DNA of 64,000 nucleotides, taken from NCBI RefSeq assembly GCF_002940665.1, contig NZ_MIGY01000001.1:1364001-1428000 (forward strand). The letters run 5' to 3'. This stretch comes from Xanthomonas arboricola (GTDB taxonomy: Bacteria; Pseudomonadota; Gammaproteobacteria; Xanthomonadales; Xanthomonadaceae). Each line of letters starts with the position of its first letter. Positions within the stretch are counted from its first letter, which is position 1. The notes below the pieces were generated by a model. It did no database searches. It saw only the letters and a list, made by a program, of their open reading frames with translations, and was not told the origin of the DNA. The position numbers and the translations under genes were made by a program. Below are positions 1 to 3,814 of this stretch, piece after piece.

Positions 1-2
1 AG

Positions 3-260
3 CGCTTCGCCGAAGGCAAGCCGATTGAATTGATTGATGGCGAACGGCTGCTGGAAATGATACGAGCGGCGCAGCAACAGGCAGCAGCACAACAGACGTC
101 TGCACGCGTCGAACCCGTCTTTGCGTCCACTATCTCGATGTCCGTTGTCACACCAAGCTGCCCGTACTGCGGCAGCGCCCTAGTACAGCGAAGGAACCGG
201 CGCACCAACGAAGACTTCCTCGGCTGCAGTCAATTCCCCAGCTGCAGAGGAACCGCGTAA
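3..260 (+). CDS. C-terminal part of Mrr-type restriction endonuclease with topoisomerase-like zinc ribbon (cut by window start)
   Basis: The reading frame is open from the first bases and ends with TAA at 258-260. The N-terminus lies outside the window. The visible start (FAEGKPIELIDGERLLEMI) matches the last helix of Mrr/restriction-endonuclease-like domains, where a conserved LIDG motif precedes the final helix. A four-cysteine zinc ribbon follows: CPYC, then about 20 residues later GCSQFPSC, in the style of the bacterial topoisomerase I C-terminal finger. Proteins with this pairing are usually DNA-cleaving restriction or defence nucleases. It sits just upstream of a ParA-like and a RelA/SpoT-like gene in an AT-richer stretch, which suggests an accessory or defence island. 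The family call rests on about 85 residues only, and the catalytic core is not visible. Confidence 0.7.
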   Translation, partial: RFAEGKPIELIDGERLLEMIRAAQQQAAAQQTSARVEPVFASTISMSVVTPSCPYCGSALVQRRNRRTNEDFLGCSQFPSCRGTA

Positions 261-427
261 GTGAACCTGACCCCGTTTCTTCCGACTCCGTTTCTTCCGT
301 TTCTCATTGGCAATTCCATCAGTTTAAACCGTCGGATGCCGAAATATTCAATCACAAAATGCTCACCGTCGGTAAATCAGTTCGAGCGACGCAGGCTTGT
401 CTCCCCAGAAAGTTTTAAGGTCAATAA

Positions 428-1528
428 ATGAAAACAATATCTATATTCAATAACAAGGGTGGAGTGGGGAAAACGACCCTAACTTATCACTTTGCACACG
501 CGCTAGCCAATTTAGGCCATCGCACGCTTGTTATTGACCTTGATCCACAATGCAACCTAACTATTCTTGGGATGGATGAAGATTTAATTCATTCCATTTG
601 GGAAGCAGAGGACGCGTTTGTTGAAGACTTCGATAAAGCAAGGTTAACGCGCAACCCTCAACAGTATAATGATTTATTGTCCACTCCGCGCTCGATCCAT
701 TTCCTCTTAAAACCAACGGAGGACGGCGTGGGAGACATTCCTTCATTGCCGCCTCCGCACGAGCTAGCCAATGGCCTTGGCCTTATTCCCGGCAGACTCA
801 CGATGCATATGTACGAGGACAAGATAAGCAAGCTTTGGAGTGAGGCTTTTCAAGGCGATCCACAGGCTATTCGCACAATCACCAAAATTAGAAGCCTTGC
901 GAAGGCATACGCTACCAAACACGGCTATGAATTTGTCATCATGGACACATCTCCGAGTCTTGGGGCGCTCAACAAGGTCATCATCTCCACAACAGATGGA
1001 TTTTTGATCCCTTGTATGCCAGACATGTTTTCGCTTTATGGCATACGAAACATTGGCGCTGCATTAGCAGGATGGAAAAAACAGTTTCACACGATGTATT
1101 CGTTATTATCCGATGAGAAACGGTCAGAGTTTCCTGAGAATTTTATTAAGCTCCTAGGCTTCACTATTTACAACGCAAAACGGTACACCGCAGTAAATCA
1201 TCCCTGGAATCTTGCCACCGCCCATTATCATTACGCGCTCCAAATACCGGAAGCGATAACCAAGTACATCCCAGACCAGGTAAGAGACCATCTTTCTACT
1301 GCACTACTCAACGCGCCCGTTGGTGGTGAGGCTGTAATGCACAGCCATAACACACTACCCGGCATGGCACAAAAATACCACACTCCGATTTGGAATGTTC
1401 CCAACTTAAACTCGCTTGAGACCGGCGACGCCTCAACGATACGAGGAAATCGAGAAATATACTTCGAAACCAGGCAAAGCTACCAAAAATTTGCAACATC
1501 CGTTTTAGCTCGAATCAACCTCATTTAA
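428..1528 (+). CDS. Stand-alone ParA-like ATPase (AAA_31/CbiA type)
   Basis: This is a 366-residue protein beginning MKTISIFNNKGGVGKTTL, which contains the deviant Walker A motif with signature lysine typical of ParA/MinD/Soj ATPases. Switch I/Walker A-prime is visible as LVIDLDPQCNLT, and Walker B as FVIMDTSPSLG near residue 170. It is longer than classical Soj (about 250 residues), with an insert after the first beta strands and a long C-terminal half. No ParB or parS-like repeats lie nearby, so chromosome or plasmid partitioning is unlikely. An AAGG ribosome-binding site precedes the ATG by about 8 bases. The RelA/SpoT-domain gene follows after 14 bp, so the two are almost certainly co-transcribed. 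Base composition is clearly AT-richer than the neighbouring core genes, which is consistent with horizontal acquisition. Confidence 0.85.
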   Translation: MKTISIFNNKGGVGKTTLTYHFAHALANLGHRTLVIDLDPQCNLTILGMDEDLIHSIWEAEDAFVEDFDKARLTRNPQQYNDLLSTPRSIHFLLKPTEDGVGDIPSLPPPHELANGLGLIPGRLTMHMYEDKISKLWSEAFQGDPQAIRTITKIRSLAKAYATKHGYEFVIMDTSPSLGALNKVIISTTDGFLIPCMPDMFSLYGIRNIGAALAGWKKQFHTMYSLLSDEKRSEFPENFIKLLGFTIYNAKRYTAVNHPWNLATAHYHYALQIPEAITKYIPDQVRDHLSTALLNAPVGGEAVMHSHNTLPGMAQKYHTPIWNVPNLNSLETGDASTIRGNREIYFETRQSYQKFATSVLARINLI

Positions 1529-1542
1529 GTATTGGACACACA

Positions 1543-2190
1543 ATGACTCCAGAACGAATGCAGGAGCTGATTGAGCTTTTTAAGTCAAATCGCAATGAAT
1601 TCGATGTCTTTGCTAGCGGCATACGGCAATGGTTTTTAGGACATGACGAACTAGTGTCTAAAGAGTCGGTCCATTCGATTAGGTATCGACTTAAAGATTT
1701 AGAGCATTTAAGAGACAAGCTGACTAGAAAGTTTGCCGATGTCGATCTTACCAACAGCGAATTCTTCTCTAGGATAACCGACCTTGCCGGAGTCAGAATT
1801 CTCCATCTCCATCAAGCTCAGTTCAATGAAATTCATAGTGCGATTACTAAAAAAATCAGTCAAAATGATTGGGTATTGGCCGAGCCAGCAAAAGCTTTTA
1901 CGTGGGATCCTGAATCCCAAGAGTTTTTCGCGGGGCATGGGTTGCACGTTGAACTACGGGACACCTACTACACCAGCGTTCACTACCTCGTAAAGCCTCG
2001 CGCCGATTCACCATTATGCTGTGAGATTCAAGTGCGAACTTTGTTCGAGGAGATTTGGGGTGAAGTAGACCATAAGCTCAACTATCCTAATCCAACGAGT
2101 AACATCGCCAGCAGGGAGCAGCTAAGAGTCCTTTCAAAACTTGTCGGCGCTGGAAGCCGCTTAGTTGACTCGATATTTAGGACCGCATGA
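1543..2190 (+). CDS. RelA/SpoT-domain protein (small alarmone synthetase-like)
   Basis: A 215-residue single-domain protein. A G-loop-like stretch (YRLKDLEHLRDKL) is followed by ITDLAGVRIL with the conserved Asp and Arg, YTSVHYLV, and CEIQVRTLFEEIWGEVDHK, which is the EIQxRT...W...(E/D)H signature of (p)ppGpp synthetase domains. No HD hydrolase, TGS or ACT domain is present, so it resembles small alarmone synthetases or toxSAS toxins. In the G-loop the usual serines are replaced by Asp and His, so the preferred nucleotide or the activity may differ. It lies 14 bp after the ParA-like ATPase and shares its AT-rich composition. Possible roles are an alarmone- or nucleotide-modifying toxin controlled by the ATPase, or a catalytically altered regulator. 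Function is inferred. Confidence 0.82.
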   Translation: MTPERMQELIELFKSNRNEFDVFASGIRQWFLGHDELVSKESVHSIRYRLKDLEHLRDKLTRKFADVDLTNSEFFSRITDLAGVRILHLHQAQFNEIHSAITKKISQNDWVLAEPAKAFTWDPESQEFFAGHGLHVELRDTYYTSVHYLVKPRADSPLCCEIQVRTLFEEIWGEVDHKLNYPNPTSNIASREQLRVLSKLVGAGSRLVDSIFRTA

Positions 2191-2348: not shown

Positions 2349-2681
2349 ATGATGAAGTGGATGGGCACCGCGCTGGCCGCGGCATTGCTGGTGAGCGGTT
2401 GCGTCAAGGAGGAGGGCGAGAAGTTCGTCGGCCACTGGGTCAACGTGCAGACGCAGGAAGAGACGATGGACATCGAGCGCAATGGCGAGACCTTCATGGT
2501 CCGCAGCACCACGCCGAAATTCTTCAGCCGCAAGCCCAAGACCGAGAGCTACCCGGCGGTCTACAAGGACGGGGCGCTGCAGGTCACCAACGATGGCGAG
2601 ACGGTGAACTTCGCCATCGACGCGGCTAACGGCCACCTCAACACCGGTGGCGAGCAGTACCAGCGCGTGCCGGCCAAGTAA
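2349..2681 (+). CDS. Small lipoprotein of unknown function
   Basis: This 110-residue protein starts MMKWMGTALAAALLVSGCVK. The N-terminal hydrophobic segment ends in a lipobox (LVSGC), so it is predicted to be exported and lipidated at Cys. The mature part is small and polar (VGHWVNVQTQEETMDIERNG), suggesting a compact beta-rich fold like small periplasmic lipoproteins. No catalytic motif was recognised. The start was chosen because GGAG lies 8 bases upstream of the first of two consecutive ATGs; an upstream in-frame Met at 2277 lacks a signal peptide. A hairpin terminator follows. Composition is typical of the high-GC chromosome, so the foreign-looking stretch ends before this gene. Confidence 0.8.
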   Translation: MMKWMGTALAAALLVSGCVKEEGEKFVGHWVNVQTQEETMDIERNGETFMVRSTTPKFFSRKPKTESYPAVYKDGALQVTNDGETVNFAIDAANGHLNTGGEQYQRVPAK

Positions 2682-3224: not shown

Positions 3225-3515
3225 TCAAGCCGCCAGCCGCTTGATCCGCGATGGCAGATCGCCCAGCGCGCGATGCGCCTGTTCCAGCTCGTAATCGGCT
3301 TGCAGGCTCAGCCAGAAGCGCTCGGTCGTGCCCAGCGCTGCGGCCAGGCGCACGGCGGTGTCGGCGGTGATACCGCGCTTGCCCAGCACGATCTCGTTGA
3401 TGCGGCGCGGCGGTACATCGGTAGCCCGCGCCAGTGCGTTCTGGCTGATGCCCATCGGCTCGAGGAACTCCTCAAGCAGGATTTCGCCAGGGTGGATGTT
3501 GGGTAGGACTGTCAT
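3225..3515 (-). CDS. higA: HigA-family antitoxin (XRE/addiction module antidote)
   Basis: A 96-residue protein beginning MTVLPNIHPGEILLEEFLEP, the canonical start of HigA antitoxins. A helix-turn-helix follows (ISQNALARATDVPPRRINEIVLGKR) and then TADTAVRLAAALGTTERFWLSLQ. It is expected to bind and neutralise the HigB toxin and to repress the operon by binding its palindromic operator. It starts 17 bases after the higB stop codon, in the toxin-first order characteristic of higBA. Upstream in-frame Met residues exist, but the family N-terminus matches the ATG at 3515. Confidence 0.93.
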   Translation of the reverse strand: MTVLPNIHPGEILLEEFLEPMGISQNALARATDVPPRRINEIVLGKRGITADTAVRLAAALGTTERFWLSLQADYELEQAHRALGDLPSRIKRLAA

Positions 3516-3532
3516 GGACAGATGCCTCGTGC

Positions 3533-3814
3533 TCAGTGGTAATCGACAATTTCGACCTCGGCGACATCGCCCTCCATCCATCGGAAGCAGATGCGCCACT
3601 GGTCGTTGATCCGGATGCTGTACTGCCCGCGCCGCTCGCCCTTCAACGCTTCCAGCCGGTTGGCGGGCGGAATGCGCAGATCGTCGAGGTGCGCGGCAGC
3701 GTTGAGCATGCGCAACTTGCGGCGCGCGACCGACTGGATGTCGGCCGGCAACCGGCGGGAGCGCTCACCCATCCAGATCTTTTCGGCTTCCTTGTCGACA
3801 AAGCTCCTGATCAT
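3533..3814 (-). CDS. higB: HigB/RelE-family mRNA interferase toxin
   Basis: A 93-residue RelE/HigB-like toxin beginning MIRSFVDKEAEKIWMGERSRRLP. It shows the family segments RKLRMLNAAAHLDDLRIPPANRLEALKG and QYSIRINDQWRICFRW. Homologues are ribosome-dependent endoribonucleases that cleave translated mRNA under stress. It is the first gene of the higBA operon, directly downstream of a palindromic promoter region. Length and motifs look intact, so the toxin should be functional. Confidence 0.92.
   Translation of the reverse strand: MIRSFVDKEAEKIWMGERSRRLPADIQSVARRKLRMLNAAAHLDDLRIPPANRLEALKGERRGQYSIRINDQWRICFRWMEGDVAEVEIVDYH

Follow-up and report, generated by a model that had tools for sequence, protein, structure and literature searches.

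Here we describe a two-gene module in a 64,000-nucleotide stretch of the Xanthomonas arboricola genome (NCBI RefSeq assembly GCF_002940665.1, contig NZ_MIGY01000001.1, forward-strand positions 1,364,001 to 1,428,000; hereafter the window), in which a gene for a ParA-like ATPase is followed directly by a gene for a single-domain RelA/SpoT protein. We consider it probable (about 0.7) that this pair is an anti-phage module of the abortive-infection type, combining a ParA-class switch with an exchangeable effector, and that it represents one branch of a larger family. This reading is based on the pairing of the two genes, their joint divergence, the exchange of partners, the retention of putative active-site residues and the occurrence of the pair in two kinds of hotspot; phage protection, toxicity of the RelA/SpoT protein, its control by the ATPase and the trigger are what we infer. 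The features concerned are as follows.

3..260, plus strand: 3' part of a restriction endonuclease gene of the Mrr type, with a C-terminal zinc ribbon (PF01396, expectation value (E) 1e-9)
261..427, no strand: intergenic region where the AT-rich cassette begins, presumably carrying the promoter of the pair
428..1528, plus strand: ParA-like ATPase with a deviant Walker A motif, 366 amino acids (aa), the proposed sensor and switch
1543..2190, plus strand: single-domain RelA/SpoT (small-alarmone-synthetase-like) protein, 215 aa, the proposed effector
2349..2681, plus strand: small lipoprotein-like gene, 110 aa, the right edge of the variable site in Xanthomonas

The preliminary description of this DNA had reported two AT-rich genes placed 14 base pairs (bp) apart, directly behind an Mrr-type nuclease with a zinc ribbon and free of ParB, HD hydrolase or small antitoxin. 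The open reading frames (ORFs) at 428-1528 and 1543-2190 confirmed the sizes of 366 and 215 aa and the gap of 14 bp. The G+C content of the two genes was 0.44-0.48, within a cassette of about 45% G+C behind the Mrr gene, as compared to 0.57-0.75 in the rest of the window (2-kb steps from base 2001 on). In the host genome the Mrr gene is a 302-codon ORF (match G000:C1:1363439-1364257, followed by the stop) in which Mrr_cat (PF04471) was matched at 107 bits. Neither a ParB-like nor an antitoxin-like ORF adjoined the pair in the ORF list of the window, which holds frames of at least 60 aa, and the Pfam scan, which covered three proteins of the window (Mrr tail, ParA-like ATPase and RelA/SpoT protein), reported no HD domain in the 215-aa protein. 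The Mrr gene is the left edge of a variable insertion site and lies outside the module, as does the lipoprotein-like gene at 2349..2681. The host genome contained two further RelA_SpoT matches, whose open frames span 835 and 726 codons, and the RelA/SpoT gene of the window is therefore an accessory third.

The 366-aa ATPase matched the Pfam families AAA_31 (E 4e-28) and CbiA (E 2e-15), and its deviant Walker A motif, KGGVGKT, was unchanged in 24/24 aligned ParA relatives. The AlphaFold2 model had a predicted local distance difference test score (pLDDT) of 91.6. The closest solved structure, by sequence as well as by fold, was DIP2308 (3pg5), an uncharacterised ParA-like protein with 23-26% identity (E 6e-28), which gave the first four Foldseek hits of the model, followed by Soj and pNOB8 ParA. 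The ATPase also matched phrog_164, named ParA-like partition protein in PHROG, and scored 70.8 bits against the cut-off of 180 of the curated ParA_partition model. PDC-M28B of PADLOC matched it weakly (E 2.1e-8), over residues 3-39 only, which is the Walker A stretch.

In the 215-aa protein, RelA_SpoT (PF04607) was matched over residues 49-183 (E 8e-15). Residues R49, K51, K59, D80, G83, R85, Y143, S145, H147, E161, Q163, R165 and H177 were invariant in all 38 aligned RelA/SpoT sequences; we take R49, K51, K59, D80, R85, Y143, H147, E161 and Q163 to be catalytic, following work on the small alarmone synthetases (SAS) RelQ and RelP. W121-D122-P123 was likewise invariant within this group, and the alignment to RelP extended through the EIQxRT region. 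The AlphaFold2 model (pLDDT 93.6) had its best fold matches in RelP and RelQ, with a query template modelling (TM) score of about 0.5-0.65, CapRel being a poorer match at 0.43-0.45. The protein is predicted to be catalytically active. PDC-S33 of PADLOC matched it weakly (E 4.5e-5). Four longer RelA/SpoT relatives of 336-389 aa (L009, L211, L212 and L213) had no adjoining ParA match or annotation, and three of them form the outgroup of the RelA/SpoT tree. Two Vibrio phages (L213 and L210, filamentous and tectivirus-like) carry a RelA/SpoT-like sequence with no ParA annotated beside it.

With the RelA/SpoT protein as query, the genome collection yielded 29 loci in other genomes, among them Rhodanobacter, Methylibium, Burkholderia, Pseudomonas, Rhodobacter, Paracoccus and Agrobacterium as well as Acidobacteriaceae, Bryobacterales, Magnetococcales and Poribacteria. 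Orthologous pairs occur in the environmental isolates Rhodanobacter sp. Soil772 (L010), where each of the two proteins has 79-80% identity to its counterpart in the window, and Methylibium sp. Root1272 (L011). Conserved adjacency, put forward earlier as a check on the pair, was found throughout: ParA or a remnant of it lay upstream, on the same strand as RelA/SpoT, at 29/29 genome loci, and ParA was directly upstream at 18/18 RelA/SpoT loci of viral contigs (one a fragment at the record end, and some of these records near-identical to each other). The ParA gene was intact and adjacent at 25 of the 29 genome loci; at the other four a gene was inserted between the two (L026), ParA was in two frames (L030 and L035) or only its 3' part was left (L037). 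All 52 tagged RelA/SpoT partners started between -8 and +15 bp from the ParA stop, the starts having been chosen near the stop by script. Since the pair recurs in distant taxa, chance adjacency is excluded, and the ParA and RelA/SpoT genes are a conserved unit. Across the main ParA clade described below (n = 50 pairs), the distances of the two proteins were correlated with a Mantel r of 0.81, a value that none of 2000 permutations reached; this is a sign of linked inheritance rather than of contact. Of 150 related genomes, six, counting the host itself, contained a relative of the RelA/SpoT protein. In Xanthomonas hortorum (L026) the gene that splits the pair is insertion-sequence-like, and it is repeated nearby together with the lipoprotein gene, so that the pair may no longer be functional here. 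One Xanthomonas genome (G026) holds a diverged pair elsewhere in the genome, with its ParA split (L008).

The preliminary description had taken the ATPase partner of the RelA/SpoT enzyme to suggest a different control logic. Such a partner is not peculiar to RelA/SpoT, because ParAs of the same superfamily also pair with SIR2, HEPN and cyclase-like proteins. Phylum-wide and viral searches extended the set of ParAs to 158 rows, identical ends removed. Immediately downstream, 52 of these rows have RelA/SpoT, 30 SIR2, 8 HEPN and 5 a cyclase-like protein, and in 63 no partner was recognised; at 90% ParA identity the aligned rows formed 46, 26, 8 and 5 clusters for the four partners, respectively. 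Profiles of our own served to label the RelA/SpoT and SIR2 partners, and all-against-all BLAST defined the clusters of HEPN and cyclase-like ones. The Pfam tests covered 4 of the 8 HEPN partners, 3 of the 5 cyclase-like ones, one SIR2 and one RelA/SpoT partner besides that of the window. Among 11 ParA plasmid matches inspected, a SIR2 gene came next in six (Salmonella, Spirosoma, Vibrio ponticus, Photobacterium, Neorhizobium and Burkholderia), RelA/SpoT in one (Caballeronia) and neither in four. The ParA tree (154 sequences, 340 columns) contained a main RelA/SpoT-paired clade of 53 tips (support 0.87), a SIR2-paired clade of 32 tips (support 1.0; two of the 32 stop at a contig end) and a cyclase-like-paired clade of 5 tips (support 1.0), and a clade of 9 tips with support 0.97 took in all 8 HEPN-paired ParAs.

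The one SIR2 partner run through Pfam matched PF13289, two SIR2 partners resembled ThsA and LmuA on PADLOC, and the SIR2-partner profile matched DSR2 and ThsA in PDB. On viral contigs ParA was directly upstream of SIR2 at 18 of 22 loci, the other four being a locus with the ParA ORF ending 280 bp off, one lying only 201 bp from the start of its record and two that were weakly matched and lack ParA. HEPN partners matched PF18735 in 4/4 tested (E 4e-7 to 9e-13) and have an invariant RN-x3-H in common. The cyclase-like partner gave no Pfam match in the 3 tested of 5 and no meaningful match in PDB; its name comes from a motif of class III cyclases, and the label is therefore tentative. A reverse search with this partner returned the same five contigs only. 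The SIR2 enzyme of these sister modules is a predicted NADase and the HEPN enzyme a predicted RNase, and the genes overlap or nearly touch their ParA.

Exchange of partners was also seen within Xanthomonas, at one chromosomal site. The RelA/SpoT proteins of L006 and L026, both from this site, group with those of the window and L010 (55-56% identity to L010, support 0.83), whereas their ParAs have at most 32% identity to any main-clade ParA and sit in another clade (support 0.99). As main-clade pairs with 46-56% RelA/SpoT identity keep a ParA identity of 44-69% (669 comparisons), we read L006 and L026 as the replacement of one partner and not as ordinary divergence. The other case of partner exchange, L064, is more distant. 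We think it somewhat probable that ParA/MinD-class proteins form an immune family serving as an infection-sensing switch with at least four interchangeable effectors, with exchange at one chromosomal site in one genus.

Among the 63 unpaired ParA rows, eleven had less than 700 bp after ParA and four were disrupted RelA/SpoT pairs (L008, L026, L053 and L095); ParA was followed by a gene read as ParB in L118 and by a PglZ-like protein in L148. No recurrent partner was seen among the ORFs listed for 18 unpaired loci. In L148 (4001-7293) the ParA-like gene overlaps the gene of a 771-aa protein by 4 bp, with PglZ just under the cut-off (E 2.8e-5), possibly a further partner class in a single case. 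In L107, L110, L112, L143, L149, L152, L184, L187 and L189, phages carry ParA-like genes (about 330-370 aa) for which we could recognise no partner, some of them, by our reading, near integrase, regulator or tail genes.

The first kind of hotspot is the variable site behind Mrr. The Mrr gene was present in 23/35 Xanthomonas genomes, the pair stood behind it at 3 of 25 sites (two sites end within 360 bp), and among RelA/SpoT loci the Mrr-tail matches were confined to Xanthomonas. On these grounds, Mrr was rejected as a third component. We retrieved 20 regions behind Mrr in addition to the window, and 14 sites had both the Mrr and the lipoprotein flanks. The ParA-RelA/SpoT pair occupied three of these (window, G018 and G025), and six held other defence or candidate genes, namely GmrSD (G002), ThsB-TIR (G028), an Mrr_cat nuclease (G005), an OLD/NsnB-like ATPase (G033) and PADLOC candidate S46 (G021, and G016 by similarity to G021). 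No cassette gene could be assigned at G001 (weak HNH match), G015, G034 and G023. The seven sites without the right flank held a retron II-A type reverse transcriptase (G026), a HEC-04-like ATPase (G010), a Zeta_toxin domain protein (G019), an S46-like gene by similarity (G008, two sites) and, where the Mrr itself is diverged, a dCTPase-like defence protein (G030), and no defence gene was visible at the last of them (G003). Considering these contents across Xanthomonas, the Mrr site is a hotspot often holding defence genes. At the G031 site (L240), the remaining one of the 14, we observed a three-gene cassette in which a ParA-like protein other than that of the pair (AAA_31, E 2e-33; 279 aa) is accompanied by proteins of 185 and 303 aa, and which may be another ParA-based system. 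A protein of 590-720 aa matching PDC-S46 recurs at the Mrr hotspot (L244, L246, L250 and L258, three genomes), the match having been tested in L244 only (E 7e-220).

The second kind of hotspot lies in P2-like prophages. Among the PHROG matches in the surroundings of 17 viral pairs (127 ORFs), portal, terminase and gpA-type replication protein came first. The RelA/SpoT module lay between gpA and portal in 5 of the 17 viral records (L085, L088, L090, L092 and L097), and a further record (L084) has it at 84 bp from portal; L083, L091 and L099 have a portal with the module elsewhere, and 8 records had no portal match. The SIR2 module was found between gpA and portal in 3/19 records (L111, L126 and L133 (3.6 kb from portal)), 212 bp from portal in L129 and elsewhere in L134. 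None of the HEPN and cyclase-like records (n = 11) had both flanks, and two lay 0.6-0.7 kb from portal. The cos-proximal stretch gpA-gpQ, the place of old and tin, is described as an antiviral hotspot by Rousset et al. (PMC9122126). Placement in two kinds of defence hotspot argues for a defence role. The earlier proposal of a possible phage-sensing module beside a nuclease was supported in part: the genomic sites point to phage defence, while the Mrr nuclease did not prove to be part of the module.

In the mechanism that we propose, the ParA-class ATPase encoded by gene 1 would act both as sensor of the infection and as switch, and the nucleotide pyrophosphokinase encoded by gene 2 would be the effector, which is released or switched on at infection and shuts down the cell. 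The effector would make (pp)pGpp or (pp)pApp, or would pyrophosphorylate the CCA ends of tRNA. In the wider family the same kind of ParA is coupled to a SIR2, HEPN or cyclase-like enzyme instead. We lean slightly towards an ATPase that is needed to turn the effector on, rather than one that holds it off.

A type II-like toxin-antitoxin system, in which an unusually large antitoxin, the ParA, constantly silences a RelA/SpoT toxin, is possible, though we do not favour it; its role would be to stabilise the element or to cause addiction, whether or not it also defends against phage. Such a system would account for the order of the genes (putative neutraliser first, enzyme second), their tight spacing and their joint divergence; the toxSAS enzymes are toxins whose neutralisation in trans is known (PMC11782079), and an antitoxin role has been reported for node D29, which is an AAA ATPase but of a different class (PMC10440598). 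The damaged loci speak differently. ParA was damaged and the RelA/SpoT ORF intact at five loci, namely L037 (5' half missing), L053 (one in-frame stop) and L030, L035 and L008 (split frames), the reverse being seen only at L095; four of the five came from RelA/SpoT-anchored searches, the damage may be an artefact of assembly, and where the upstream gene is lost the RelA/SpoT enzyme may be silent as well. These five loci weigh against an antitoxin, because a constant antitoxin should not go first.

We consider it unlikely that the pair is a small alarmone synthetase of housekeeping or stress, with an ATPase neighbour sensing starvation or the energy state, unrelated to phage. The nearest solved relatives, RelP and RelQ, are indeed stress alarmone synthetases, and the putative catalytic residues are conserved, but such a role does not fit the patchy spread (6/150 related genomes, and a strong main-clade ParA in 4/398 of the phylum), a host which already has two other RelA_SpoT genes, or the prophage carriage, the variable site and the exchange with SIR2 and HEPN. 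A plasmid or prophage partition or maintenance operon with an accessory alarmone enzyme is very improbable, for although the ATPase matches ParA families, including the partition-named phrog_164, the pair has no ParB, as the preliminary description had noted, ParA being followed by RelA/SpoT at the loci examined, the 70.8 bits are far under the ParA_partition cut-off of 180, many loci are chromosomal or on contigs with metabolic neighbours, and the sole downstream ParB-like gene (L118) follows a ParA scoring only 60-74 bits on our own profiles.

Several observations count against an abortive-infection module. As the RelA/SpoT fold is nearer to RelP and RelQ than to CapRel, toxicity is not given by similarity. 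In most viral records the module lies outside the P2 hotspot. The module is rare, a strong main-clade ParA being present in 4/398 genomes of the phylum (up to 5 candidates scored in each). A ParA of this kind can apparently function by itself, since no partner was recognised for 63 of the 158 rows. The preliminary description had suggested looking for enrichment beside defence genes; two defined hotspots were found, and in the general flanks no clear excess was seen among 132 nearest as compared to 100 farther ORFs of 28/29 genome loci (five L026 ORFs left out per set; flank genes called by our own GC-position heuristic). PADLOC at E<=1e-10 gave 24 models under 13 names, with one member each, in the near ORFs, and 12 models under 6 names, with up to 9 members counted by name and including some generic ATPases and regulators, in the far ORFs. 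The Pfam families of the near flanks were mostly metabolic.

Other genes near the site include a minus-strand pair 3' of the lipoprotein gene, presumably HigB-like (3533-3814) and HigA-like (3225-3599) by their sequence; the HigA-like gene also lies near the Mrr site in several other Xanthomonas genomes. Two genes 5' of the Mrr gene and upstream of the window (L002, 9552-11204 and 2095-3027) have the look of bacteria-killing secretion effectors, which we assume from an XVIPCD-like end.

Comparison with known systems revealed likeness in parts. Like our pair, the toxSAS systems (FaRel2/ATfaRel2, CapRel and PhRel) have a RelA/SpoT-domain enzyme, encoded in an operon of two genes or acting as a defence protein, here a RelA/SpoT-type synthetase domain with conserved putative catalytic residues, but the partner here is a 366-aa ParA-class ATPase and not pZFD, Tis1-like, PanA or a hydrolase; Pfam found none of these four domains in the window pair. 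ParABS shares the deviant Walker A, while ParB was absent next to ParA in the loci examined here. PARIS (AriA ATPase with AriB TOPRIM) is alike in coupling an ATPase to an effector in two genes at P4/P2-type hotspots, and deletion of either gene of PARIS was non-toxic and abolished defence (PMC9122126). However, AriA belongs to AAA_15/AAA_21, whereas the ATPase here is of the ParA/MinD type (AAA_31/CbiA) and the effector is RelA/SpoT, and neither AriA nor AriB was among the PADLOC matches listed for the window pair at E<=1. Node D29 of NetFlax, an AAA-ATPase, is also a hub with exchangeable partners, there reported as antitoxin (PMC10440598), but its domain is that of AriA, GajA and PtuA. The word ParA is absent from the main texts of PMC9122126 and PMC10440598. 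An earlier report (PMC7159879) places ParA/MinD-like domains in multi-gene vWA-MoxR/VMAP conflict systems, on the effector side and predicted inactive, in contrast to the intact Walker motif and two-gene pair found here. Thoeris ThsA, DSR2 and Lamassu LmuA were matched by the SIR2 partners of the sister modules, but SIR2 is here about 285-290 aa and paired with a ParA-like ATPase. PADLOC-DB 2023 gave weak matches only for the window pair; PDC-S33 (RelA/SpoT) and PDC-M28B (ParA) are weakly similar, which does not by itself make either model a description of the pair. No description of a ParA and RelA/SpoT or ParA and SIR2 immune pair was found in titles and abstract openings of the papers listed, with preprints, most subscription papers and supplements lying outside this search. 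A two-gene system of an ATPase and an exchangeable effector is already known, and a ParA-class ATPase in such a role appears new.

The best-known task of ParA/MinD-class ATPases is to position DNA and division sites. If the reading of the pair as an anti-phage module is true, a new class of ATPase would be added to the cores of bacterial immunity, and a testable function would be given to many stand-alone ParA genes which now carry default partition names (phrog_164, 'ParA family protein'). The natural series of exchanged effectors (RelA/SpoT, SIR2, HEPN and cyclase-like) would then allow sensing by ParA to be studied apart from the action of the effector.

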